In this document: one piece after another, positions 6 to 10,244 of the stretch
Layout of the letters: the number at the start of each line of letters is the position of its first letter
Position numbering within the stretch: position 1 is the first letter of the stretch
NCBI GenBank assembly: GCA_017444545.1
Contig: JAFSWJ010000335.1
Span: forward strand, 1 to 10,252
Source: Lachnospiraceae bacterium
GTDB taxonomy: Bacteria; Bacillota; Clostridia; Lachnospirales; Lachnospiraceae
Direction of reading: 5' to 3'
DNA: 10,252 nt
Program-made: the position numbers and the translations under genes
Notes under the pieces: model-generated
What the model was told of the DNA's origin: nothing
Database searches by the model: none
The model's input: the letters and a program-made list of their open reading frames with translations, nothing else

Positions 6-40
6 AAAGTGGGACAGAGATACGTCCCCTGTCCCACTTT
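6..40. repeat. Perfect 12-bp inverted repeat, REP-like palindrome
   Basis: Bases 6-17 (AAAGTGGGACAG) are the exact reverse complement of bases 29-40 (CTGTCCCACTTT), leaving an 11-base loop. The block GGGAC at 11-15 can also pair with a second GTCCC at 24-28, so two competing stems are possible. The right arm is followed by CGTGG and not by a run of T, so it is a poor intrinsic terminator for + strand transcripts. On the - strand the stem is followed by a short T-rich stretch (TTTTATGT), so weak termination of a leftward transcript is possible. The GGGACAGAGATACGTCCCC/GTCCC composition resembles the dispersed palindromes often found with REP-associated (Y1) transposases in Clostridia. That link is from memory and was not searched. 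No transposase is in the window. Confidence 0.7.
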
Positions 41-109: not shown

Positions 110-1177
110 ATGGGATTAGAGTTTTATAAAGGAAAAAAGGTCCTCATAACGGGGCATACGGGATTCAAGGGAACCTGGCTTGCAAAGATACTGCTTGATG
201 CGGGGGCAAAGGTCAGCGGGCTGGCACTTGACAGCGAGACAGTACCTTCTCTCTATGATCTGACGGGGATAGGACAAAGGATAGATGAGAGCATTTTTGA
301 TATCAGGGATTACGGAGCGACACTCAGCATAGTCAGGAGCAGAAAGCCTGATATAGTTTTTCATATGGCGGCACAGCCGATAGTGCGGGTATCGTATGAT
401 GAGCCTGTCAGGACATTTCAGACAAATGTCATGGGAACGGTGAACATACTGGATGCAGTCAGGCGTACGGAAAGCGTGCGTTCGTTTGTGAATGTGACCA
501 CCGACAAGGTTTACCTGAATGAAGACAACGATACAGCCTTCACTGAGGATATGCCGCTTGACGGATATGATCCCTATTCCAACAGCAAATCCTGCTCGGA
601 GCTGGTTACACATTCCTACAGGAAGTCATTTTTTGGAGACAGACAGGTTTCCATCTCCACAGCCAGAGCCGGGAATGTCATAGGAGGGGGAGATTTTTCA
701 AAGGACAGGATAATACCTGACTGCGTCAGAGCAGCCCTCGGGAGGGATGAGATAATAGTCCGGAACCCCGCTTCGATCAGACCCTTTCAGCATGTACTCG
801 ATCCGCTTTTTGCATATCTTCTCATTGCGGAAAAGCAGTTCGGACACAAGGAACTGGAGGGGGCATATAATGTGGGACCGGAGATATCAGACTGCATCAG
901 CGCCGGGGAAATAACGGAGCTTTTCATCAAATACTGGGGGCATGGTCTGGAATGGATCGACAGATCCGACGGGGGACCGCACGAGGCCGGTTTTTTACGT
1001 CTTGACTGCACGAAGATGAAGGATACGTTCGGGTGGAAGCCTGTATGGGATATCAAAAGAGCAGTCGAGGAGACGGTGAACTGGACAAAGGTTTATGCTA
1101 ACGGAGGAGATGTAGTCGCAGAGATGGAACGAGAGATAAAAGAATTCATGAAGGATCGCGGTGAAAAGGATGTTTGA
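110..1177 (+). CDS. rfbG: CDP-glucose 4,6-dehydratase
   Basis: This 355-residue cytoplasmic enzyme of the extended short-chain dehydrogenase (NAD-dependent epimerase/dehydratase) family converts CDP-D-glucose to CDP-4-keto-6-deoxy-D-glucose. The nucleotide-binding glycine motif is TGHTGFKG at residues 14-21, a form typical of this subfamily. The catalytic region shows TTDK at 130-133 and the YxxxK pair Y156/K160. Two further stretches, ARAGNVIGGGDF and RNPASIRPFQHVLDPL, are subfamily signatures that separate it from dTDP-glucose and GDP-mannose dehydratases. Length is normal for the family. The ATG at 110 lies 7 bases after a modest GGAA (99-102), and the glycine motif falls at the expected distance from it. 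It is the first gene after the promoter. RfbH, the next enzyme of the pathway, follows directly. The cytidylyltransferase (rfbF) that would make its substrate is not in the window and may lie upstream. Confidence 0.95.
   Translation: MGLEFYKGKKVLITGHTGFKGTWLAKILLDAGAKVSGLALDSETVPSLYDLTGIGQRIDESIFDIRDYGATLSIVRSRKPDIVFHMAAQPIVRVSYDEPVRTFQTNVMGTVNILDAVRRTESVRSFVNVTTDKVYLNEDNDTAFTEDMPLDGYDPYSNSKSCSELVTHSYRKSFFGDRQVSISTARAGNVIGGGDFSKDRIIPDCVRAALGRDEIIVRNPASIRPFQHVLDPLFAYLLIAEKQFGHKELEGAYNVGPEISDCISAGEITELFIKYWGHGLEWIDRSDGGPHEAGFLRLDCTKMKDTFGWKPVWDIKRAVEETVNWTKVYANGGDVVAEMEREIKEFMKDRGEKDV
1164..1170 (+). promoter_or_regulatory. Candidate ribosome binding site for rfbH
   Basis: AAAAGGA lies 11 bases before the ATG at 1182, a little long but usable. 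It sits inside the end of rfbG, so rfbH translation is probably coupled to rfbG termination at 1177. A GAGGAG abuts the ATG directly and is too close to act by itself. The alternative GTG start at 1161 has AAGGA at 1151-1155, 5 bases upstream, so the choice of start is not settled by the ribosome binding site alone. Confidence 0.4.
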
Positions 1178-1181
1178 GGAG

Positions 1182-2504
1182 ATGAACGAAAAAGAGGCCC
1201 GACAGGAGATACTTGACCTTGTGGCCGAATATGCAAAAAAATTCAAATGCGGCGCAAAGCCGTACAGTGACGGGGAAAGGATCCCCTATGCAGCCAGGGT
1301 TTATGACGAAAAAGAGATGGTGAATCTTGTGGACAGTTCCCTGGAATTCTGGCTGACCGCAGGAAGGTACACGGATGAATTTGAAAAGAGGTTTGCGGAT
1401 TATCTGGGCGTCAGATACGTTTCTGTCGTAAATTCCGGATCATCGGCAAATCTTTGTGCGTTTATGGCACTGACCTCCCCTTTACTGAAAGAGCGAAGGA
1501 TCAAAAGAGGAGATGAGGTCATCACTGTTGCGGCAGGCTTTCCGACTACGGTGGCCCCTATACTTCAGTATGGAGCGGTACCGGTGTTTCTTGATGTGAC
1601 TATCCCGGGATACAACATAGATACGAGTCTTCTCGAGGAAGCACTGAGTGAGAAAACAAAGGCTGTGATGATCGCTCATACCCTTGGCAATCCTTTTGAT
1701 CTGAAAACGGTGAAGGAGTTTTGCGACCGCCACAGTCTCTGGCTTGTAGAGGACAATTGTGACGCTCTGGGATCCGAGTATACAATGGACGGAAAAACAT
1801 ACCTGACCGGAACGGTAGGCGATATCGGGACCAGCAGCTTTTATCCGCCTCATCATATGACCATGGGCGAGGGCGGAGCGGTATACACGAACGACCCTCT
1901 GCTTCACAGGATAATAAGATCGATGAGAGACTGGGGCAGGGACTGCATGTGTCCTCCCGGTACCGACAATTTTTGCGGGCACAGATATGACGGGCAGTAC
2001 GGAACCCTGCCAAAGGGCTACGACCATAAATACGTGTATTCACATTTGGGATACAATCTCAAGGCTACCGACATGCAGGCGGCTGTGGGCTGCGCCCAGC
2101 TGGATAAATTCCCTTCCTTCGTAAAAAGAAGAAGAGAGAACTTTGATATGCTTTACGAAGGACTTTCGGATGTACAGGACAGACTCATACTTCCTGTGGC
2201 GACTGAAAACTCCAAACCATCGTGGTTCGGATTTTTGATGACTGTGAGGGAAGGTATTTCCAGGGAAAAGGTTGTCAGATACATTGAGGAAAAGGGAGTC
2301 CAGACCAGGATGCTTTTTTCCGGAAATCTCATCTGCCATCCCTGCTTTGATGAATACAGAGATAATAAAAACGCTTACAGGGTCGTGTCAGACCTGAAAA
2401 ACACAGACACCATTATGAACGATTCCTTCTGGATAGGCACCTATCCCGGAATGGATGAGGCCAGGATCAATTACATGGTGAAGACCATAAAAGAGGCGTT
2501 ATGA
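1182..2504 (+). CDS. rfbH: CDP-4-keto-6-deoxy-D-glucose 3-dehydratase (E1), RfbH
   Basis: This cytoplasmic enzyme has the aspartate-aminotransferase fold and uses PMP and a [2Fe-2S] cluster to remove the C-3 hydroxyl of CDP-4-keto-6-deoxyglucose, opening the route to 3,6-dideoxyhexoses. Counting from the ATG at 1182 (440 residues), the usual PLP lysine is replaced by histidine in FYPPHHMTMGEGG (H224), which marks the E1/RfbH dehydratases rather than sugar aminotransferases. Cluster ligands are visible as C193, C255, C257 and C265. The CxC-x7-C part matches Yersinia E1, while the first gap is 61 residues rather than 57. I chose ATG 1182 because the N-terminus then lines up with known RfbH proteins and the first ligand falls at Cys193 as in Yersinia E1. 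GTG 1161 and ATG 1170 are possible alternatives. E1 needs a ferredoxin-type reductase (E3, AscD/RfbI), which is not in the window. It sits 4 bases after rfbG and overlaps the next gene by 4. Confidence 0.94.
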   Translation: MNEKEARQEILDLVAEYAKKFKCGAKPYSDGERIPYAARVYDEKEMVNLVDSSLEFWLTAGRYTDEFEKRFADYLGVRYVSVVNSGSSANLCAFMALTSPLLKERRIKRGDEVITVAAGFPTTVAPILQYGAVPVFLDVTIPGYNIDTSLLEEALSEKTKAVMIAHTLGNPFDLKTVKEFCDRHSLWLVEDNCDALGSEYTMDGKTYLTGTVGDIGTSSFYPPHHMTMGEGGAVYTNDPLLHRIIRSMRDWGRDCMCPPGTDNFCGHRYDGQYGTLPKGYDHKYVYSHLGYNLKATDMQAAVGCAQLDKFPSFVKRRRENFDMLYEGLSDVQDRLILPVATENSKPSWFGFLMTVREGISREKVVRYIEEKGVQTRMLFSGNLICHPCFDEYRDNKNAYRVVSDLKNTDTIMNDSFWIGTYPGMDEARINYMVKTIKEAL

Positions 2505-4111
2505 AGGATGTAAGTCTGCTGGACTGTACGCTGCGTGACGGCGGCTTTGTAAATGACTGGAATTTTGGTCACGGCAATATCATAAATCTTCTCGAGAGAT
2601 CGGTATCCGCAGGTATCGATCATATTGAGATCGGCTTCATAGATTCTTCTGTGGAGTTTAACATAGACAGATCGATTACTCCCGATACGGATGGCATTGA
2701 AAAGATATTTGGCGGAGTGGACAAGGAGAAATCAAAGCTCATTGCCATGATCGACTATGGCACCGTTCCAATAGAGCGTATCTGTGATGCAAAGGATTCC
2801 CTCCTTGACGGCATCAGGGTCATGATCAAAAAAAAGACCAGAAAGGAAGCGGTGGGCTTTTGCCGTGCGCTCAAAGAAAAAGGGTATCTGGTATTTGCCC
2901 AGCCCGTATCCATCACCGGCTACAGCGACGGAGAGATGAGGGAACTGACAAAGGACATAAATGATTCAGGTCTTTTTGCCATGTCCATTGTTGACACTTA
3001 CGGACTGCTGGATCGTTCTGCTCTGCTCCATTATTTCAACATCATGGATGAGGGTCTTGACGGAAATGTCAGGATCGGATATCACGCTCATAATAATTTC
3101 CAGCTGGCCTATTCAAATTCCATATCCCTCATAGAGGAGACCAGGGATGACAGGCCGCTTCTCATAGACGGCTCGGCCTTTGGCATGGGAAAGAGTGCAG
3201 GAAACTGCCCTTTGGAGCTTCTGACCATGTATGCAAACACGCATCTGGGGAAAAAATATGATACCAATCAGATACTGGAGATGATAGATACCTGTATCAG
3301 AAATATCTATGCAGTAAGTCCCTGGGGATATCAGATGCAGTATTATCTGTGTGCCTCAAATGACTGTCACCCCAAATACAGCCAGTATCTGATGAAGAAA
3401 AAGACCCTCTCCGTCAGATCCATAAACGAGATCCTCGGGATGATAAAACCGGAGGAAAGGCTTGCGTTCAACGAGGAATACATAGAGGGACTGTATCTTG
3501 AATATCAGAAGAATGATATAAATGACAGCGCCGCAAGAAAGAAGTTAAGAGATGAGTTTGAAGGGAAGGAGATACTGATCGCCGGTCCGGGAAAATCGGT
3601 CATTTCAAAAAGGGAAGTCATCGACTCATACATAAGGGATGAAAAACCGGTCATTATGTCGATAAATACGAACTTTGACGGGATAGGGTCGGATTATATC
3701 TTTCTTTCAAATTCAAAGAGGTATATGCAGCTGTCATCATCGCTTGAAAAATTGCGGGAAAACGGACTGAAGGTGATCGCCACATCAAACGTCACCAGCG
3801 CCAGAGGAAGCTTTGACAGTGTTATAGATTACAGTTCGCTCATCGATGAGGAATGTTCTATCCCGGACAATTCGCTTCCGATGCTGCTGCGGCTGCTGTC
3901 GGATCTCGGCGTGAAAAAGATAGCTCTTGCGGGCTTTGACGGCTATTCAAGTGAAGCCAGAGTGAACTATTACAATGAAGATATGGAATATGATTTTGCA
4001 CACAATTACGCTCTGGAGCTGAACGAATACACTGCAAAGGTGATAAGGAATCTGAGGGAAAAGGGGACGGAGATCATCTTTGTGACGGAGTCAAGATATG
4101 AAAAATATTAA
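2501..4111 (+). CDS. Two-domain protein: DRE-TIM (HMGL-like) aldolase domain plus Rossmann-like C-terminal domain
   Basis: Residues 1 to about 275 form an HMGL-like TIM barrel of the DRE-TIM metallolyase family, which makes or breaks C-C bonds of 2-keto acids with a divalent metal. Visible marks are LLDCTLRDGG (R12, D13), the metal-binding HxHN at H195/H197/N198, and the GMGKSAGN loop at 228-235, closest in form to 4-hydroxy-2-oxovalerate aldolase. From about residue 355 a second domain begins with a strand and glycine turn (ILIAGPGKS, G362-S366), then SINTNF and DYIFLSNSKRY. This resembles a Rossmann-type domain like those of DUF115/sialyltransferase-like proteins, but its function is unknown to me. 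The 536-residue length fits the 'aldolase catalytic domain' proteins found in polysaccharide clusters. Its position between rfbH and the ThDP enzyme suggests it supplies or processes the carbon unit added to the sugar. The ATG overlaps the rfbH stop by 4 bases (ATGA), with AAGAGG 4 bases upstream. The true substrate is not predictable from sequence alone. Confidence 0.8.
   Translation: MKDVSLLDCTLRDGGFVNDWNFGHGNIINLLERSVSAGIDHIEIGFIDSSVEFNIDRSITPDTDGIEKIFGGVDKEKSKLIAMIDYGTVPIERICDAKDSLLDGIRVMIKKKTRKEAVGFCRALKEKGYLVFAQPVSITGYSDGEMRELTKDINDSGLFAMSIVDTYGLLDRSALLHYFNIMDEGLDGNVRIGYHAHNNFQLAYSNSISLIEETRDDRPLLIDGSAFGMGKSAGNCPLELLTMYANTHLGKKYDTNQILEMIDTCIRNIYAVSPWGYQMQYYLCASNDCHPKYSQYLMKKKTLSVRSINEILGMIKPEERLAFNEEYIEGLYLEYQKNDINDSAARKKLRDEFEGKEILIAGPGKSVISKREVIDSYIRDEKPVIMSINTNFDGIGSDYIFLSNSKRYMQLSSSLEKLRENGLKVIATSNVTSARGSFDSVIDYSSLIDEECSIPDNSLPMLLRLLSDLGVKKIALAGFDGYSSEARVNYYNEDMEYDFAHNYALELNEYTAKVIRNLREKGTEIIFVTESRYEKY
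4087..4090 (+). promoter_or_regulatory. Ribosome binding site for the HAD hydrolase gene
   Basis: GGAG lies 7 bases before the ATG at 4098 and within the last codons of the aldolase gene. It supports the start that gives a 14-base overlap, the longest clear overlap in the operon. Confidence 0.55.
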
Positions 4112-4745
4112 GCTGGTCATCTTTGATCTGGACGGAACGCTGTTCAATACAAAGCCCGGGATCATGAAGGCGATCATGAAGACGATGGATGAAAAGGGTC
4201 TTGAAAGGCCATCGGAAGAGATCTGCGATTCCTTCATCGTACCTCCGATAGAGGACAGTTTTGTCAGGGTATACGGAGTCAGCAGGGAGGAGTCAAAGGA
4301 ACTATCAAATCAGTTCAGGGGTTATTACGGGGAGGATGACTACCTGTATCAGACCGAAGAATACGAGGGTATGAGGGAAACTCTTTCGGAACTGAAAAAG
4401 CGTGGAATGAAGCTGGCTCTTGCAACCTACAAAAAAGAGTGGATGGCAGAAAAGCTTTGCAGGCATTTCGGATATGATGTATTTCTCGACAGTCTTCACG
4501 GGAGCGATCCCGAGGGAAAGCGCACAAAAGCCGGTATCATAAATATGTGCATGGAGGAGTGCGGATGCGCAAGCAGCGAGACGCTGATGGTTGGGGATAC
4601 GGATTTTGATGCACTGGGTGCAAGGGATGCAGGGACTGCTTTTGCAGGAGTCACCTATGGGTGCGGCTTTGCGAACAGGAAAGATGTGGAGTTTTATGAG
4701 GGGGCAGTCGCAATAGACTCGCCAAAGGAGCTGCTTGAATTATGA
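4098..4745 (+). CDS. HAD-superfamily hydrolase, subfamily IA (phosphoglycolate-phosphatase-like)
   Basis: This soluble phosphatase of 215 residues has all four HAD motifs. Motif I is FDLDGTLFNT (nucleophile D10, acid D12), motif II is the threonine of LATYK (T110), motif III is the lysine region GKRTK (K141 or K144), and motif IV is VGDTDFDA (D167, D171). The helical region between motifs I and II is a cap of the C1 type seen in Gph and beta-phosphoglucomutase relatives. Nothing in the sequence fixes the substrate. Being coupled between the aldolase and the ThDP enzyme, it is a candidate to dephosphorylate a small keto or hydroxy acid made for the sugar branch, but a role on a sugar phosphate or in housekeeping repair is equally compatible with the motifs. 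It overlaps the aldolase gene by 14 bases and the next gene by 4 (ATGA). Confidence 0.88.
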   Translation: MKNIKLVIFDLDGTLFNTKPGIMKAIMKTMDEKGLERPSEEICDSFIVPPIEDSFVRVYGVSREESKELSNQFRGYYGEDDYLYQTEEYEGMRETLSELKKRGMKLALATYKKEWMAEKLCRHFGYDVFLDSLHGSDPEGKRTKAGIINMCMEECGCASSETLMVGDTDFDALGARDAGTAFAGVTYGCGFANRKDVEFYEGAVAIDSPKELLEL

Positions 4746-6550
4746 AAAAAAAGGTATCAGAGATCATAGCGGATTTTCTGGTTTCAAAGGGAATACAGAC
4801 TGTTTTCACGGTCACAGGCGGGGGAGCGATGCACCTCAATGATTCCCTTGGGCATAATAAGAACCTGCACTGTATATATAACCATCATGAGCAGGCATCT
4901 GCCATAGCTGCCGAGGCCTATGCCAGATACAGCGGACGGATCGCGGCAGTCTGCGTGACCTCCGGACCCGGCGGTACCAATGCCATCACAGGGGTCCTGG
5001 GGGGATATCTGGATTCAGTGCCGATGCTTGTGATATCAGGGCAGGTAAAAAGGGCGACTACAGTGGGGGCATATGACCTGCCGCTGCGCCAGCTTGGAGA
5101 CCAGGAATATGACATAGTAAAAAGTGTTTCAAACATGACCAAATATGCGGTCATGGTGACAGATCCCTACGAGATCGAATATCACCTTGAAAAGGCATAT
5201 TTTCTGGCCACAAACGGAAGAAAGGGCCCGGTATGGATAGATGTGCCCCTTGATGTACAGGGAGCATATGTAGAAACAGATGATCTGTACGGTTATGACG
5301 GCAGGGATGACGATGAGGTGGAAAACCCTGTTTACAACAAAGCTTTTACCGGAAAGATCCTGGAAAAGATAAATGAAGCAAAAAGACCGCTCATACTTGC
5401 GGGGGAAGGGATATATTTCGGAAATGCCCACAAAGAATTTCTGGAATGCATAGATGCCCTGAAGATACCGGTAGTCACGGCATGGAATGCAAATGATCTC
5501 ATACCCGATGACAGCCCGTATTTTGCCGGGCGTCCCGGCAGCGTTGGCACCAGAGGCGGGAACTTTGCCGTACAGAGTGCGGATCTGCTGCTGGTTCTGG
5601 GATGCCGCATGAACATCAGGATCATAAGTTATAACGAATATAACTTTGCAAAGAATGCATACAGGATAATGGTGGACATAGATGAGGCAGAACTTCAAAA
5701 GCCCACGATAAAGATCGATATGCCGGTACATGCGGATGTGAAGGATGTGCTGAAGGATCTCATCCTTCATTCAAAGGAAAAGACAGCAGATCACGGAAAA
5801 TGGACTGCCTGGTGCAGGGATATCAATCACAGATATCCGGCATGTCTGCCGGAGTATCTTGAGGGTGGCAGACCGTTGAATCCGTACGCATTTATTAAAC
5901 GGCTGTCAGAATATCTGTCCGAAGGCGATGCGGTTATCTGCGGAAACGGCGCAGCCTGTGTACAGACTTTTCAGGCATTTGAGATGAAGCGGGACCAGAG
6001 GGTTTTCACCAATTCGGGATGCGCGGCCATGGGCTACGGATTTCCGGCGGCGGTGGGTGTCTCAGTCTGCAGAGGAGACAACAGGACCGTGTGCATAGAC
6101 GGCGACGGAAGCTTCATGATGAACCTGCAGGAACTGCAGACTGCGGTGTACAACAGGCTTGACCTCAAGATCTTCATTTTGAACAATAACGGATATCATT
6201 CTATCAGACAGACACAGACAAACCTTTTTAAGCCTCCGCTTGTCGGGGTTTGCGACGGGAACGGAGTCAGTTTCCCTGATTTTGAGAGACTGTCATACGG
6301 CTTTGGAGTTCCTTATTTCAGGATAAATTCCATAGGGGAAACAGATACTTCAACATTTGATCGGATATTTTCCGAAAACGGACCTGTCATCATTGAAGTG
6401 GTTGTCGATGAAAAGCAGAATTTTGAGCCGAAGCTCTCAAGCAGGATGACAGAGGACGGAAAGATGGTATCACCTGATATAGATGACATGTTTCCTTTCC
6501 TTTCACGGGAGGAGTATGAGGCTGTACATGCCGGGGCGCTTGATCTGTAA
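4742..6550 (+). CDS. Thiamine-diphosphate enzyme, acetolactate synthase/YerE-like
   Basis: This 602-residue protein has the three-domain layout of acetohydroxyacid synthase. The N-terminal pyrimidine-binding domain carries the cofactor-activating glutamate in HHEQASA (E50) followed by SGPGGTN. A middle domain of about residues 190-345 is of the type that binds FAD in this family. The C-terminal domain has the ThDP/metal motif GDGS at 454-457 ending in NNNG at 481-484. Such enzymes decarboxylate a 2-keto acid and transfer the acyl carbanion to an acceptor. A true IlvB would normally sit with ilv genes and a regulatory subunit, which are absent. Next to rfbG and rfbH the better comparison is YerE of Yersinia, a ThDP flavoenzyme that adds a two-carbon unit from pyruvate to the C-4 ketone of CDP-4-keto-3,6-dideoxyglucose. 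A C-4-branched sugar is therefore predicted. The start overlaps the HAD stop by 4 bases, with AAGGAG 11 bases upstream. Family certain, acceptor inferred. Confidence 0.87.
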   Translation: MKKKVSEIIADFLVSKGIQTVFTVTGGGAMHLNDSLGHNKNLHCIYNHHEQASAIAAEAYARYSGRIAAVCVTSGPGGTNAITGVLGGYLDSVPMLVISGQVKRATTVGAYDLPLRQLGDQEYDIVKSVSNMTKYAVMVTDPYEIEYHLEKAYFLATNGRKGPVWIDVPLDVQGAYVETDDLYGYDGRDDDEVENPVYNKAFTGKILEKINEAKRPLILAGEGIYFGNAHKEFLECIDALKIPVVTAWNANDLIPDDSPYFAGRPGSVGTRGGNFAVQSADLLLVLGCRMNIRIISYNEYNFAKNAYRIMVDIDEAELQKPTIKIDMPVHADVKDVLKDLILHSKEKTADHGKWTAWCRDINHRYPACLPEYLEGGRPLNPYAFIKRLSEYLSEGDAVICGNGAACVQTFQAFEMKRDQRVFTNSGCAAMGYGFPAAVGVSVCRGDNRTVCIDGDGSFMMNLQELQTAVYNRLDLKIFILNNNGYHSIRQTQTNLFKPPLVGVCDGNGVSFPDFERLSYGFGVPYFRINSIGETDTSTFDRIFSENGPVIIEVVVDEKQNFEPKLSSRMTEDGKMVSPDIDDMFPFLSREEYEAVHAGALDL

Positions 6551-7570
6551 ATGAAAAAGCTGGATATACTCTATCAGTTCAACGAAAAATATGCTCCCTT
6601 TGCGGGAACATCCATCGCATCCGTGTTTGAAAACAACAGACACATGGATGAGATCAGGATTTTTATCCTTGGAGAGGATCTGTCTCAGAGTACAAAGGAC
6701 AGGCTCCTTGGATTTGCCGCCGGGCATGAAAGAGAGATGATCTTTATTGACTCCGAAAGGCTTCTGAGGATGATGAAGGAGATAGGGATGCCGACATACA
6801 GGGGATCGTATGCGGCCAATATGCGGCTTTTTGCAGGATCCCTGCCTCAGATAGACTCAAAGAAGCTTTTGTACCTTGATTCCGATACGATAGTTGACGG
6901 GGAACTTGATGAACTGATGGAAACAGACATGGAAGGATACCCTGTGGCCATGGTACTTGATTCTCTGGTCAGAAAGCACAAGCTGCGCCTTGGATTCGAG
7001 GCGGCGGAACCCTATTTTAATTCAGGGATGATGCTTTTTGATATGGAGGAGTGGAGGAGGAGACGCTGCTCTGAAAGAATAGCTGAGCATGTGAAAAATG
7101 TACGGGCCTGGTACCCTTCACCCGATCAGGATCTAATAAATGTGGTTCTGAAGGGGGAGATATTGAGGCTTCCCCCGAAGTACAACATGCAGCCGGTACT
7201 CCTTGCCTTCAATACCGCGGATTACATGAAAACATTCGGACCGGAAGGATTCTACAGCTTCGGCGAGATCAGAGAGAGCATCAGGGAGACGGTGATATAT
7301 CATTTTTTCAGGTTTGTGGGAGAGTTTCCATGGCATGAAGGGAATCTGCATCCGGACAATGATCTCTTTAACAGATACCTGGCACTGTCGCCATGGAAGG
7401 GATATGAGAAAAAAAGGTCAGATGCCGGTGCAGTGCTGAAGTTTGAAAAGGTATTGTACCGGATACTGCCTGGAAAGATATTTATCAGGCTTTTCCGCAT
7501 TGCCTACGAGATGTTTATAAAAAAAGCAAATGCAGACTCATTGAAAGAGAAAGTAAACAGGACGATGTGA
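6551..7570 (+). CDS. Glycosyltransferase family 8 protein
   Basis: This 339-residue cytoplasmic or membrane-associated retaining glycosyltransferase has a GT-A fold. The N-terminal strand ILYQFNEKYAPFAGTSIAS matches the start of GT8 enzymes (compare LgtC, WaaJ and glycogenin). The metal-binding DxD is LYLDSDTIVDG (D110, D112), followed by the family stretch PYFNSGMMLFD and the late histidine/proline/tryptophan block HFFRFVGEFPW (H251-W261), which stands where GT8 enzymes have H-x-G-x-x-KPW. The usual KPW is FPW here, so that part is modified. GT8 enzymes mostly use UDP-glucose or UDP-galactose, so this protein more likely adds an ordinary hexose to the glycan than the CDP-sugar made by genes 1-5. 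The ATG follows the previous stop with no gap (TAAATG). The best purine-rich stretch (GGGG, about 6534-6537) is too far away, so translation probably depends on reinitiation. The basic C-terminal tail (about residues 285-339) may contact the membrane. Confidence 0.9.
   Translation: MKKLDILYQFNEKYAPFAGTSIASVFENNRHMDEIRIFILGEDLSQSTKDRLLGFAAGHEREMIFIDSERLLRMMKEIGMPTYRGSYAANMRLFAGSLPQIDSKKLLYLDSDTIVDGELDELMETDMEGYPVAMVLDSLVRKHKLRLGFEAAEPYFNSGMMLFDMEEWRRRRCSERIAEHVKNVRAWYPSPDQDLINVVLKGEILRLPPKYNMQPVLLAFNTADYMKTFGPEGFYSFGEIRESIRETVIYHFFRFVGEFPWHEGNLHPDNDLFNRYLALSPWKGYEKKRSDAGAVLKFEKVLYRILPGKIFIRLFRIAYEMFIKKANADSLKEKVNRTM
7559..7562 (+). promoter_or_regulatory. Ribosome binding site for the GT2 gene
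   Basis: AGGA is 7 bases from the ATG at 7570 and only 4 from the GTG at 7567. The spacing favours the ATG, which overlaps the preceding TGA by one base (TGATG). Confidence 0.5.
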
Positions 7571-8565
7571 TGAAAAAGATAAGCATACTGATACCCTGCT
7601 ACAATGAAGTTGAAAATGTGAAGCCTATATCAGAGGCTGTGGTAAAGATCATGGAAGAGGAGCTGTCACGTTATGATTATGAGCTTGTTTTCATAGACAA
7701 CTGCTCCGAGGACGGAACCAGAGAGAAGCTTGAGGAAATCTGTGCCGCAAACAAAAAGATCAAGGCTATCCTGAACGTGACAAATTTCGGACAGTTCAAT
7801 TCGCCATTCTACGGTATGTGTCAGACTACGGGCGACTGTACCATTTCCATGTGCTGTGATTTTCAGGATCCTCCGGAACTTATCCCTAAGTTTGTGGAGG
7901 AATGGGAAAAGGGCTACAAGATCGTAAGTGCCATCAAGACAAGCAGCAAAGAAAACGGCATCATATATTTCCTCAGGAGCTGTTACTACAAGGTGATCAG
8001 GAATATGTCCTCGGTCAAGATGATAGAGCATTTCACCGGAACAGGACTGTATGACAGATCCTTTATCAACCTGATATCGCAGCTTGATGATCCCATCCCC
8101 TTTCTGAGAGGTATAGTTGCGGAATACAATTTCAAAAGAAAGGACATCCCCTATACCCAGAATGAGAGACGGGCCGGAAAAACCCACAACAATTTCTACC
8201 TGCTCTACGATGCGGCGATGCTTTCTATCACTTCCTACACCAAGGTGGGACTGCGTCTTGCCACCTGGGCAGGCTTTGCCATCGGCGCAGTTAGTTTCAT
8301 AGTGGCGCTGGTATTTCTGATCCTGAAACTCACTCACTGGGACAGTTTTCAGGCAGGTTATGCACCCATGATCATCGGCGTTTTCCTCCTGGGTTCCATA
8401 CAGCTTTTCTTCATAGGCTTTCTGGGAGAATACATCCTCAACATTAATACGCGTATCATGCACAGGCCGCTGGTGGTGGAGGAGAGGAGAATAAATTTTG
8501 AAAAGTCCGGGGATGAAACCGGTAAAGACGCAGATGAAACAGGGAAGAAAGAGGAAAAGAGATGA
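7570..8565 (+). CDS. GT2 glycosyltransferase, DPM1/GtrB/ArnC-like, with two C-terminal membrane helices
   Basis: This inner-membrane protein (331 residues from ATG 7570) is likely to move a sugar from a nucleotide donor to a polyprenyl phosphate on the cytoplasmic face. The GT-A domain shows ILIPCYNE (6-13), IDNCSEDGT (42-50) and the metal/donor motif CDFQDPPE with D97 and D100, all characteristic of the DPM1-like branch of GT2. The loop ERRAGKTHNN (from about 199) is the arginine-containing acceptor-phosphate segment found in GtrB and ArnC. Two hydrophobic helices follow, about residues 230-250 and 262-285, then a charged tail. Length is typical for GtrB-type enzymes. It precedes a large polytopic protein with a 4-base overlap, which fits a two-step system in which the lipid-linked sugar is used outside. 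The donor could be the CDP-sugar of genes 1-5 or plain UDP-glucose, and sequence alone does not decide. A GTG at 7567 is the alternative start. Confidence 0.9.
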   Translation: MKKISILIPCYNEVENVKPISEAVVKIMEEELSRYDYELVFIDNCSEDGTREKLEEICAANKKIKAILNVTNFGQFNSPFYGMCQTTGDCTISMCCDFQDPPELIPKFVEEWEKGYKIVSAIKTSSKENGIIYFLRSCYYKVIRNMSSVKMIEHFTGTGLYDRSFINLISQLDDPIPFLRGIVAEYNFKRKDIPYTQNERRAGKTHNNFYLLYDAAMLSITSYTKVGLRLATWAGFAIGAVSFIVALVFLILKLTHWDSFQAGYAPMIIGVFLLGSIQLFFIGFLGEYILNINTRIMHRPLVVEERRINFEKSGDETGKDADETGKKEEKR

Positions 8566-10244
8566 TAATCACTCTCGTTAACTGGGCATGGGCTTTTGCA
8601 TCTTTTTTTCTGACCGGAATGCTTGTGCGAAAGATCATAGGAAAAATCACGGGATGGTACATGCAAAAGGGAGATGAGATAGTAGTCTGCGGGATTGTTC
8701 TTTGTACTGTTTATGCTCAGGTCTTCAGCCTGTTTTACAAAGTTGGCGTTCTTTGTACGCTGATACTGGTTCTCATCGATGCAGCAGCTCTGGTCATATG
8801 CAGAAAAGAAATAATACGATCGTTAAAATCTGCATCCCGTCCCGGGATACCCCTGTGGAAAGGCTTTGTATGCCTGGTCTTTGGCTTCTTTTTTCTGATG
8901 GCGGCAACCCTGAAGGTTGAACATGTGGATTCATATCTCTATCATGCTCAGTCGATAGAGTGGAATGAGCTCTACGGAGCTGTGAAGGGGCTGGGGAATC
9001 TCCATGCAAGGCTTGCATACAACAGTTCATTTTTCTGCCTGCAGGCGCTGTTCAGCCTCAGAGGATTAACGGGAAGATCGCTTCATGTATTGAATGGCCT
9101 GTTCTGCTTTCCTGCTTCAGTGTATTCTTTTGGAACGATGAAGATCTTTGATACAAAAAGAGTATGTGCATCAGATCTGGTCAGGATGATCACCTTCTTT
9201 TATGTTCTGTACACGGTGGGTTATATTTCATCGCCCTGTTCTGATATTCTGACTCTGCTCGTGCTCATATACGTGATGACCAGGTGGACTGAGGCAGCAG
9301 AGGAGGGAAGGGATGACAGACTTCAAAACACGGCTTTTTTGGGTGTGATCACTGTATATCTGGTTACGTTGAAGCTGTCAGCTCTGCCGTTTGTAATGCT
9401 TTGTCTGTATCCTTTGTACATCTTCGTGAAAGAGAGAAAATGGAGGGGGATGATCACCATGCTTTTGTCGGGAACATTGGTGATAGCTCCGTTTTTTGCC
9501 AGAAATATCATACAGTCGGGATATCTGCTGTATCCCTTCCCGGGAATCGACCTCTTCAGTTTTGACTGGAAGATACCGGCGCAGAAGGCTGCCTACGAGA
9601 GCAAAGAGATAATGGCCTGGGGCAGAGGTATGACGGACAAAGAATTGTATGACAGCGGATTTTCCGTATGGATACACCGATGGTGGCAGCTGCTTGACAG
9701 CGAATACAAGCTCTATGTTCTGATCGATCTTGCAGCCATTATTTTTGATATCCGGATCCTGATCAAAAGCATCAGAAGGAAAAAGATGGATGCAAGGGTA
9801 TTTCTGATCATTGTGACCATCGCGGCATGGTCATACTGGTTTTTTACAGCACCAATAATAAGATACGGTATGCCGGTTGTTGTGCTTGTTCCCGCAGTAA
9901 GCATGATGTTTGCAGACCGGAGTATGAGATCATGCTTTGCCGGACTGACAGGCTTTTTTGTTGCCGTATTGCTTTTTCAGCTTGTACCGTCATTTGATAC
10001 ATACAATTGCAAGATTATTTATCCCGAGGACTATCCTCTGAATGAAGGAAGGGAAAATGAGATCCTTTCAGCGGATGGAAATGAATTTATCATTTATACC
10101 CCGATGAAGGGTGCGGACCTGCCGGAATATCCCATATACCATCAGTTTCCGGCAGTACCTTCAAAGGTCAATATAAGTGAGACAGAAATGAGAGGGAAGG
10201 ACTTTTCTGATGGATTCAGATACAAAAGTATTACGGGAGAGTAG
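8562..10244 (+). CDS. Polytopic membrane protein, LIC_10190-like, possible GT-C glycosyltransferase
   Basis: This 560-residue protein has roughly 12 hydrophobic segments: near residues 3-22, 40-58, 60-78, 100-118, several between 145 and 312, and a last cluster between 385 and 470. It ends in a hydrophilic tail of about 90 residues. After the fourth segment comes EHVDSYLYHAQSIEW (E120, D123, H128) and then GLGNLHARLAYNSSFF. I associate this region with the LIC_10190 family of membrane proteins found in surface-polysaccharide loci. Its position in the first large loop recalls the acidic catalytic motif of GT-C transferases, which use polyprenyl-phosphate sugars outside the membrane. The role is inferred. 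A polymerase or another transport function is possible. The ATG overlaps the GT2 stop by 4 bases, with GAGGA 6 bases upstream. The stop is TAG at 10242-10244. Only 8 bases follow in the window and show no terminator, so the operon may continue. Confidence 0.75.
   Translation: MIITLVNWAWAFASFFLTGMLVRKIIGKITGWYMQKGDEIVVCGIVLCTVYAQVFSLFYKVGVLCTLILVLIDAAALVICRKEIIRSLKSASRPGIPLWKGFVCLVFGFFFLMAATLKVEHVDSYLYHAQSIEWNELYGAVKGLGNLHARLAYNSSFFCLQALFSLRGLTGRSLHVLNGLFCFPASVYSFGTMKIFDTKRVCASDLVRMITFFYVLYTVGYISSPCSDILTLLVLIYVMTRWTEAAEEGRDDRLQNTAFLGVITVYLVTLKLSALPFVMLCLYPLYIFVKERKWRGMITMLLSGTLVIAPFFARNIIQSGYLLYPFPGIDLFSFDWKIPAQKAAYESKEIMAWGRGMTDKELYDSGFSVWIHRWWQLLDSEYKLYVLIDLAAIIFDIRILIKSIRRKKMDARVFLIIVTIAAWSYWFFTAPIIRYGMPVVVLVPAVSMMFADRSMRSCFAGLTGFFVAVLLFQLVPSFDTYNCKIIYPEDYPLNEGRENEILSADGNEFIIYTPMKGADLPEYPIYHQFPAVPSKVNISETEMRGKDFSDGFRYKSITGE

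Follow-up and report, generated by a model that had tools for sequence, protein, structure and literature searches.

A Lachnospiraceae operon predicted to build a CDP-3,6-dideoxyhexose with a long hydroxylated branch

What does a YerE-like lyase add to its sugar when its gene shares an operon with an aldolase and a phosphatase? The question is raised by a stretch of 10,252 nucleotides from a Lachnospiraceae bacterium (contig JAFSWJ010000335.1), here called the window, which is one entire contig (G000:C229) of a draft genome in 381 contigs that is 66% complete. The closest relatives that carry a name belong to the Lachnospiraceae, and many of these come from rumen or gut samples. A preliminary description placed a five-gene cassette at positions 110..6550 in one coupled operon, and all five genes do lie there on the + strand. 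The families it assigned, namely RfbG, RfbH, an HMGL-type aldolase, a HAD phosphatase and a YerE-like enzyme dependent on thiamine diphosphate (ThDP), are borne out by profile matches and by matches to relatives of solved structure. These families, their motifs, the operon and its conservation can be read from the sequence itself; the chemistry is a prediction. We put at about 60% the probability that the operon makes a cytidine diphosphate (CDP)-3,6-dideoxyhexose carrying a long hydroxylated branch at C-4.

The predicted route and its CDP-sugar acceptor

RfbG and RfbH would convert CDP-glucose to CDP-4-keto-3,6-dideoxyglucose. The aldolase would join pyruvate and a phosphorylated aldehyde (a short aldose phosphate), and the resulting ulosonic-type acid, a 4-hydroxy-2-oxo-3-deoxy acid phosphate, would be dephosphorylated by the HAD enzyme. 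The ThDP enzyme would decarboxylate the resulting 2-keto acid and put the remaining acyl unit on the C-4 ketone of the sugar. The new side-chain ketone would then be reduced by a reductase whose gene lies nearby in most relatives and probably at another place in this genome, and the GT2 glycosyltransferase would hand the branched sugar to undecaprenyl phosphate, from which it would be joined to a surface glycan. Comparison of related loci supports the 2-keto acid product, the phosphate step and the CDP-3,6-dideoxy acceptor; the aldehyde, the chain length and stereochemistry of the branch, its reduction and its attachment are what we infer beyond that.

Two sets of loci were compared. The first holds the best 80 of 579 confirmed aldolase relatives among the matches listed, chosen by similarity to the window's own aldolase; in 55 of these loci the flanks reach 8 kb or more ahead of the gene and 7.5 kb or more beyond it. 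For the second, 150 genomes of the window's family were searched for ThDP relatives with E 1e-120 or better; this gave 40 places in 37 genomes, the window included, and the other 39 form the sample. The sets overlap, with three identical pairs of ThDP rows and several same-genus loci that apparently also belong to the first, and near-identical genomes occur among the loci (e.g. L044 and L048). Families in the flanks were called by BLAST thresholds, and neighbour clusters were named from profile scans of one or a few of their members.

The expectation that RfbG and RfbH lead to a CDP-3,6-dideoxyhexose acceptor gains support from whole genomes. RfbH and the solved E1 enzyme 3bcx can be aligned over their full lengths (519 bits), including a double histidine at 231-232 and cysteines 200, 262, 264 and 272, which we take to matter for catalysis and the iron-sulphur cluster. 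Among 47 ThDP loci with full flanks, RfbH is found in 34, RfbG in 30 and RfbF in 31, and rfbG or rfbH lies within the flank in 36. In all of the remaining 11, RfbH exceeds its cut-off elsewhere in the genome, and it does so in none of nine genomes in which the aldolase has a different partner, described below. This co-occurrence (11/11 versus 0/9) ties the ThDP setting to a CDP-3,6-dideoxy-4-ketohexose, and a CDP-4-keto-3,6-dideoxyhexose is thereby supported as the likely acceptor of the ThDP enzyme.

The ThDP enzyme has the motifs of a ThDP decarboxylase, with a catalytic-type Glu50 in HHEQ and GDG at 454. Its best solved relative, aligned end to end, is 8rph; the next, an acetohydroxyacid synthase (AHAS), scores 261 bits. 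8rph is the structure of JanthE, which is YerE-like and takes several 2-keto acids, among them 4-hydroxy-2-oxovalerate with benzaldehyde (PMC12188165). Among solved chains, the window's enzyme is nearer to this characterised YerE-like enzyme than to acetolactate synthases. Its predicted function is transfer of an acyl unit to a CDP-deoxy-sugar ketone. Lys567 of JanthE is Lys in all 102 aligned ThDP rows; the window differs in having GDG for CDG and other residues at JanthE V121, Y268 and P293. GEG replaces GDG of the ThDP motif in 5 of the 102 rows.

That the aldolase keeps company with the ThDP gene in other genomes was put to the test and found to hold. A ThDP relative stands in 66 of the 80 aldolase loci. 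In the second sample, 10 of the 11 loci whose ThDP enzyme is at least 55% identical to the window's carry the aldolase, and the eleventh (L120) lies 308 bases from a contig end. At 45-51% identity the aldolase is present in 1 of 17 loci, and at 38-42% in 4 of 11, there as a distant, long, two-domain-like aldolase. Such a distant aldolase (28-31% identity) stands beside another YerE-like ThDP group in L138, L140, L144 and L147, one of which belongs to the window's own genus.

The two-domain aldolase and its partners

The N-terminal part of the aldolase shares its HMGL/DRE-TIM barrel, an Arg-Asp pair and a His-x-His motif with DmpG (1nvm) and the putative aldolase 3dxi. R12, D13, H195 and H197, which we take to be the metal and active-site residues, are conserved in 76/76 rows (an 81-row alignment with five partnerless loci left out). 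The protein departs from DmpG in its fused second domain, in having Phe or Tyr at the place of His21 and in scoring below the family cut-offs, and on the last two counts an ordinary 4-hydroxy-2-oxovalerate aldolase was rejected.

The second domain, a conserved unit of about 200 residues at the C-terminus, is absent from the preliminary description. It has the fold of MptE and the GT42 sialyltransferases, and N389, N430, G478, D480 and G481 occur in all 76 rows. No significant sequence-family match was found for the window's domain, the MptE-like model giving 12.5 bits where 34.6 are needed; that model matches 3 of 58 members' C-terminal domains (best E 2.2e-4). A profile search of the PDB gave a best E of 0.041, and a Pfam scan yielded scattered weak matches only. 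The full-length model (predicted template modelling score, pTM, 0.56) does not settle how the two domains are arranged. Compared without residue-level superposition, the stretch past AGFDGY seems shorter than in Cst-II, whose lid presumably carries the catalytic His188.

The nature of the aldolase product is suggested by the company the gene keeps. Apart from the 66 loci with a ThDP relative, nine of the 80 have a CTP_transf_3/KdsB-type gene (L066, L072, L073, L077, L078, L079, L058, L064 and L007, all without a ThDP gene), none has both and five have neither. All nine synthetase-type genes were called by BLAST; four were additionally scanned with Pfam, and the one scanned with NCBIfam passed the cut-off of one KdsB subfamily model and fell below others. 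On an aldolase tree that leaves out L005 and L043, the two labels change at least three times on supported branches, and the partner was probably exchanged more than once. Cytidine monophosphate (CMP)-ulosonate synthetases and ThDP lyases both act on 2-keto acids. Because both alternative partners take such acids, the aldolase would make a 2-keto acid in both settings, probably a 3-deoxy-2-keto acid of ulosonic type. It had been left open whether the enzyme makes or trims a 2-keto acid; making is the more likely, and trimming loses ground.

The Kdo (3-deoxy-D-manno-octulosonate) pathway KdsA-KdsC-KdsB and the NeuB-NeuA pathway follow a common order: the ulosonic acid is made, dephosphorylated by a HAD enzyme (Kdo) and activated by a CTP_transf_3 enzyme. 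A similar order is suggested by the genes of the nine synthetase-type loci, seven of which include HAD; there a pyruvate-type aldolase would replace the phosphoenolpyruvate (PEP)-dependent KdsA or NeuB. KdsA exceeds its cut-off in three of the nine genomes (Fusobacterium, Gastranaerophilales and a Cyanobacteria-type genome) and in none of the six from Bacillota. The NeuB profile passes its low Pfam cut-off in seven of nine, strongly (248-303 bits) in G003 only, which makes one strong NeuB among the six Bacillota; seven weaker matches (27-35 bits) coincide with weak KdsA matches, and these we infer to be genes like those of 3-deoxy-D-arabino-heptulosonate 7-phosphate (DAHP) synthase. No other convincing source of ulosonic acid was found in five of the six Bacillota genomes, for which completeness is not stated. 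A two-domain aldolase near a CTP_transf_3/KdsB-type gene is a possible unusual ulosonic acid route, also in Gram-positive bacteria, and the exchange of partners points to uncharacterised synthesis of such acids there.

Two further arrangements were seen. L056 is an archaeal contig (Methanomassiliicoccaceae) with rfbG, aldolase, HAD and rfbH and without a ThDP gene within 4.8 kb downstream. At L069:4325-6172, HAD and ATP-grasp domains share one frame adjoining the aldolase, in short flanks without a ThDP or cytidylyltransferase gene.

HAD follows the aldolase: in the second sample, nine of the 15 loci that have the aldolase also have HAD, and none of the 24 aldolase-less loci does. For the 34 loci with 5 kb or more to each side the counts are 8/14 and 0/20. 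The preliminary description expected it to be conserved with the ThDP gene; it is less constant than that, occurring in 42 of the 66 ThDP loci of the first set and in none of the 24 aldolase-less ones. Eight of the 66 have an AroB-like gene instead, none has both (Fisher p 1.3e-4, uncorrected for kinship) and 16 have neither. The one AroB-like representative scored reaches 431 bits with TIGR04425 (cut-off 400). AroB-type enzymes remove phosphate from a 3-deoxy-2-keto acid phosphate, and their alternation with HAD fits a phosphorylated aldolase product. The AroB-like loci (L018, L021, L028, L031, L040, L050, L061 and L067) are HAD-free and often carry a FabG-like reductase; the branch might there be carbocyclic.

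A wider generalisation can be offered tentatively, and we think it rather doubtful at present. The two-domain aldolase may represent a PEP-independent bacterial route to ulosonic acids with a built-in domain of cytidylate-sugar type, its product being either CMP-activated or used as acyl donor for branches of at least four carbons on CDP-3,6-dideoxyhexoses, some of them made carbocyclic by an AroB-like phospholyase. If such a PEP-independent ulosonic acid and acyl-donor route exists, the Lachnospiraceae would display a large uncharacterised set of long-branched sugars.

Known systems and rival readings

The yersiniose A route comprises RfbF, RfbG, RfbH and reductase steps and shares with the window RfbG, RfbH and a YerE-like ThDP enzyme acting on a CDP-3,6-dideoxy-4-ketohexose. 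To our knowledge it includes no aldolase or HAD enzyme. The window has both, its reductase is unlinked, and the aldolase and HAD suggest a donor other than pyruvate. Within the same family, L124, L127, L130 and L136 bring together rfbF, rfbG, rfbH, a ThDP gene and a reductase without aldolase or HAD, and look like yersiniose-type clusters in Gram-positive bacteria. YerE itself uses pyruvate, giving a two-carbon branch (PMC12247030).

Closer to the window is the erwiniose pathway of Pectobacterium atrosepticum, whose YerE-like ThDP enzyme, ErwE, also takes CDP-4-keto-3,6-dideoxyglucose as acceptor. ErwE prefers 4-hydroxy-2-oxo acids as donors and gives a long C-4-branched product, as proposed for the window, and long hydroxylated donors are described for MMAR_2332 too (PMC12247030); erwiniose is a 10-carbon sugar (PMC8657720). 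A branch other than that of yersiniose, as first suggested, fits the model; the idea has a precedent in print in the donors of these two enzymes. The ErwE system makes a Gram-negative exopolysaccharide, unlike the window, and the window clusters an aldolase of a class fitting the supply of 4-hydroxy-2-oxo acids. In the open-licence literature nothing was found on an aldolase-HAD-ThDP set, nor, beyond PMC12247030, on an aldolase in an erwiniose, caryophyllose or related cluster.

The locus would represent sugar branching of the YerE/ErwE type with a dedicated two-domain aldolase and phosphatase in Lachnospiraceae-type Firmicutes, the chemistry being the unproven part. YerE-like enzymes serve mainly cell structures such as lipopolysaccharide, and for most of those found in silico the structure of the product is not known (PMC12247030). 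The operon offers a testable donor, namely the acid from its own aldolase. Long-branched sugars may be common on these anaerobes, given the 37 of 150 family genomes with a ThDP relative, with possible consequences for immune recognition and phage binding; the enzymes would also add to the catalysts available for making chiral tertiary alcohols.

Several observations weigh against the long-branch route. The mutual exclusion of ThDP and synthetase genes (Fisher's exact p 8.6e-9) is uncorrected for kinship, and the count of swaps is less sure for the long-branched L066 and the composition-unlike L064, L072, L077 and L079, five of the nine synthetase-type loci. Among the partnerless loci, L005 and L043 end at the aldolase, but L034 is flanked by about 9 kb to each side and L056 by 9 and 4.8 kb. 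The aldolase falls below the curated cut-offs for 4-hydroxy-2-oxovalerate aldolase (80.9 of 229 and 67.9 of 286 bits), and at the position of DmpG His21, presumably the catalytic His after the RDG motif, 67 of the 76 rows have Tyr and 9 Phe. Removal of a phosphate by HAD, part of the earlier model, is favoured by HAD and AroB-like genes never occurring together; it is held back by the 16 of 66 ThDP loci with neither in the flank, and a phosphorylated intermediate may not be general. The eight AroB-like loci are a puzzle, since cyclisation would turn the product into something other than a simple 2-keto acid fit for the decarboxylase.

Gaps in the window's own genome and the shape of the ThDP tree belong to the same side. 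No RfbF exceeds its cut-off in the window's 66% complete assembly, and there is no rfbF within the window; the missing gene was rejected as an argument against the pathway, since the sister genome G183 has RfbF on another contig (355 bits). No linked reductase for the branch ketone was found in the window, and the same incomplete assembly offers a 24% match; a reductase relative lies in the flank of 39 of the 47 full-flank ThDP loci, and homologues (34-41% identity) occur in 7/7 same-genus genomes, the one in G183 sharing a contig with the operon at a distance of about 26 kb. A ThDP tree made by a quick method from 102 rows (5 of the 66 first-set rows, under 520 residues, left out) has a 65-row clade containing the window, 64 of them aldolase-linked and L120 the exception, with the limit that the 61 first-set rows carry their aldolase label by construction, their loci having been picked by aldolase. 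A second clade of 26 rows mixes 9 aldolase-linked rows with 17 without aldolase.

The two most serious rivals keep the enzymes and change their product, and both are improbable beside the long-branch route. In the slightly likelier of them, the branch is of erwiniose type: the aldolase would make 4-hydroxy-2-oxovalerate from a small free aldehyde, acetaldehyde for example, and HAD would have a side role in repair or on another phosphate ester. Such donors suit ErwE and MMAR_2332 (PMC12247030) and JanthE (PMC12188165), and the 16 loci lacking both HAD and AroB-like genes would be explained; yet HAD is tied to the aldolase and missing from 24/24 aldolase-less ThDP loci, the aldolase is without the DmpG-type catalytic His, and no acylating aldehyde dehydrogenase was recognised among 19 neighbour clusters of at least four loci each, not all of them profile-scanned. 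It is also conceivable, at slightly longer odds, that the operon serves two separate sugars, the ThDP enzyme making a yersiniose-like two-carbon branch from pyruvate while aldolase and HAD supply the same glycan with an ulosonic acid of its own, unconnected to that branch. HAD does accompany the aldolase in seven of nine KdsB-type loci lacking a ThDP gene, and the same family has YerE-type ThDP genes with rfbH and reductase and without aldolase. The ulosonic acid would, however, be left without a nearby activating enzyme, a CMP-ulosonate synthetase being found in 0/66 and 0/39 ThDP loci, and one clade unites 64 of the 73 aldolase-linked ThDP rows with just one aldolase-less row.

Two other readings change the role of one enzyme. 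The aldolase might run in reverse or act on the CDP-sugar, its C-terminal domain holding the nucleotide sugar while the barrel trims or extends the branch. The domain has the fold of the CMP-sugar-using GT42 enzymes with its five invariant residues, and both gene contexts lead one to expect a cytidylated sugar; even so we consider this very unlikely, as the domain is equally MptE-like, the arrangement of the domains is open at this pTM, and RfbH exceeds its cut-off in 0/9 synthetase-type genomes. We know of no use of CMP-sugars by MptE. Least credible of all is an ordinary acetolactate synthase present by chance in a polysaccharide operon. Its profile is indeed the best named one for the ThDP enzyme (AHAS large subunit, 366 of 538 bits), but the 25 listed of its 55 NCBIfam matches all fall below their cut-offs, JanthE is the nearest solved chain, and the relatives are tied to RfbH at the genome level; a plain acetolactate synthase was rejected on these grounds.

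Operon layout and surroundings

The eight genes of the window are tightly packed on one strand (Table 1). With the listed start codons, the junctions from rfbG through rfbH, aldolase and HAD to the ThDP gene overlap by 17, 4, 14 and 4 bases.

Table 1. Features of the window, with supporting profile or structural matches
Feature	Position	Strand	Evidence
REP-like (repetitive extragenic palindromic) palindrome, 5' of operon	6..40	.	12-nt perfect arms
rfbG, CDP-glucose 4,6-dehydratase	110..1177	+	TIGR02622 417 bits, cut-off 278
rfbH, CDP-4-keto-6-deoxyglucose 3-dehydrase (E1)	1161..2504	+	PRK15407 717 bits, cut-off 423
Aldolase, full gene	2501..4111	+	
Aldolase N-terminal HMGL/DRE-TIM barrel with linking helices, residues 1-337	2501..3511	+	PF00682 63.7 bits
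Aldolase C-terminal domain, MptE/GT42-sialyltransferase fold, residues 338-536	3512..4111	+	
HAD phosphatase, motif DLDGT	4098..4745	+	PF13419 117 bits; PpaX and phosphoglycolate phosphatase models best, below cut-off
YerE-like ThDP-dependent lyase	4742..6550	+	TPP_enzyme N, M, C; 377 bits to JanthE 8rph
GT8 glycosyltransferase, same operon	6551..7570	+	PF01501 122.8 bits
GT2 of PgfS/ArnC type	7567..8565	+	PgfS model 180 bits, ArnC model 112 bits, both below cut-off
LIC_10190-family membrane protein	8562..10244	+	NF047510 288 bits, cut-off 100

Because all eight genes recur in the same order in a same-genus genome (L167 in G183, 74-92% identity per gene), the arrangement is not a chance one. 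The aldolase is found at E 1e-60 or better in 16 of 19 same-genus genomes, the window's included, with three of the 16 at only 30-41% identity, and at that threshold in 0/12 genomes from other families of the order. A YfhO-type membrane protein lies between HAD and ThDP in 7 of 16 fetched same-genus loci. Across the 47 full-flank ThDP loci a GT2 relative is present in 32 and a GtrA-type membrane protein (PF04138, one scored) in 15. The GT2 enzyme is a probable polyprenyl-phosphate glycosyltransferase for the branched sugar, and together with the GtrA-type and YfhO/PgfM-type proteins suggests that the sugar is passed to undecaprenyl phosphate, flipped and then joined to a surface glycan.

Upstream, a promoter scan of bases 1-400 gave one site against 1.1 in shuffled sequences. 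The palindrome at 6-40 (AAAGTGGGACAG...CTGTCCCACTTT), at the start of the contig, follows a pattern that occurs at six places in the assembly, the reversed control occurring at none.

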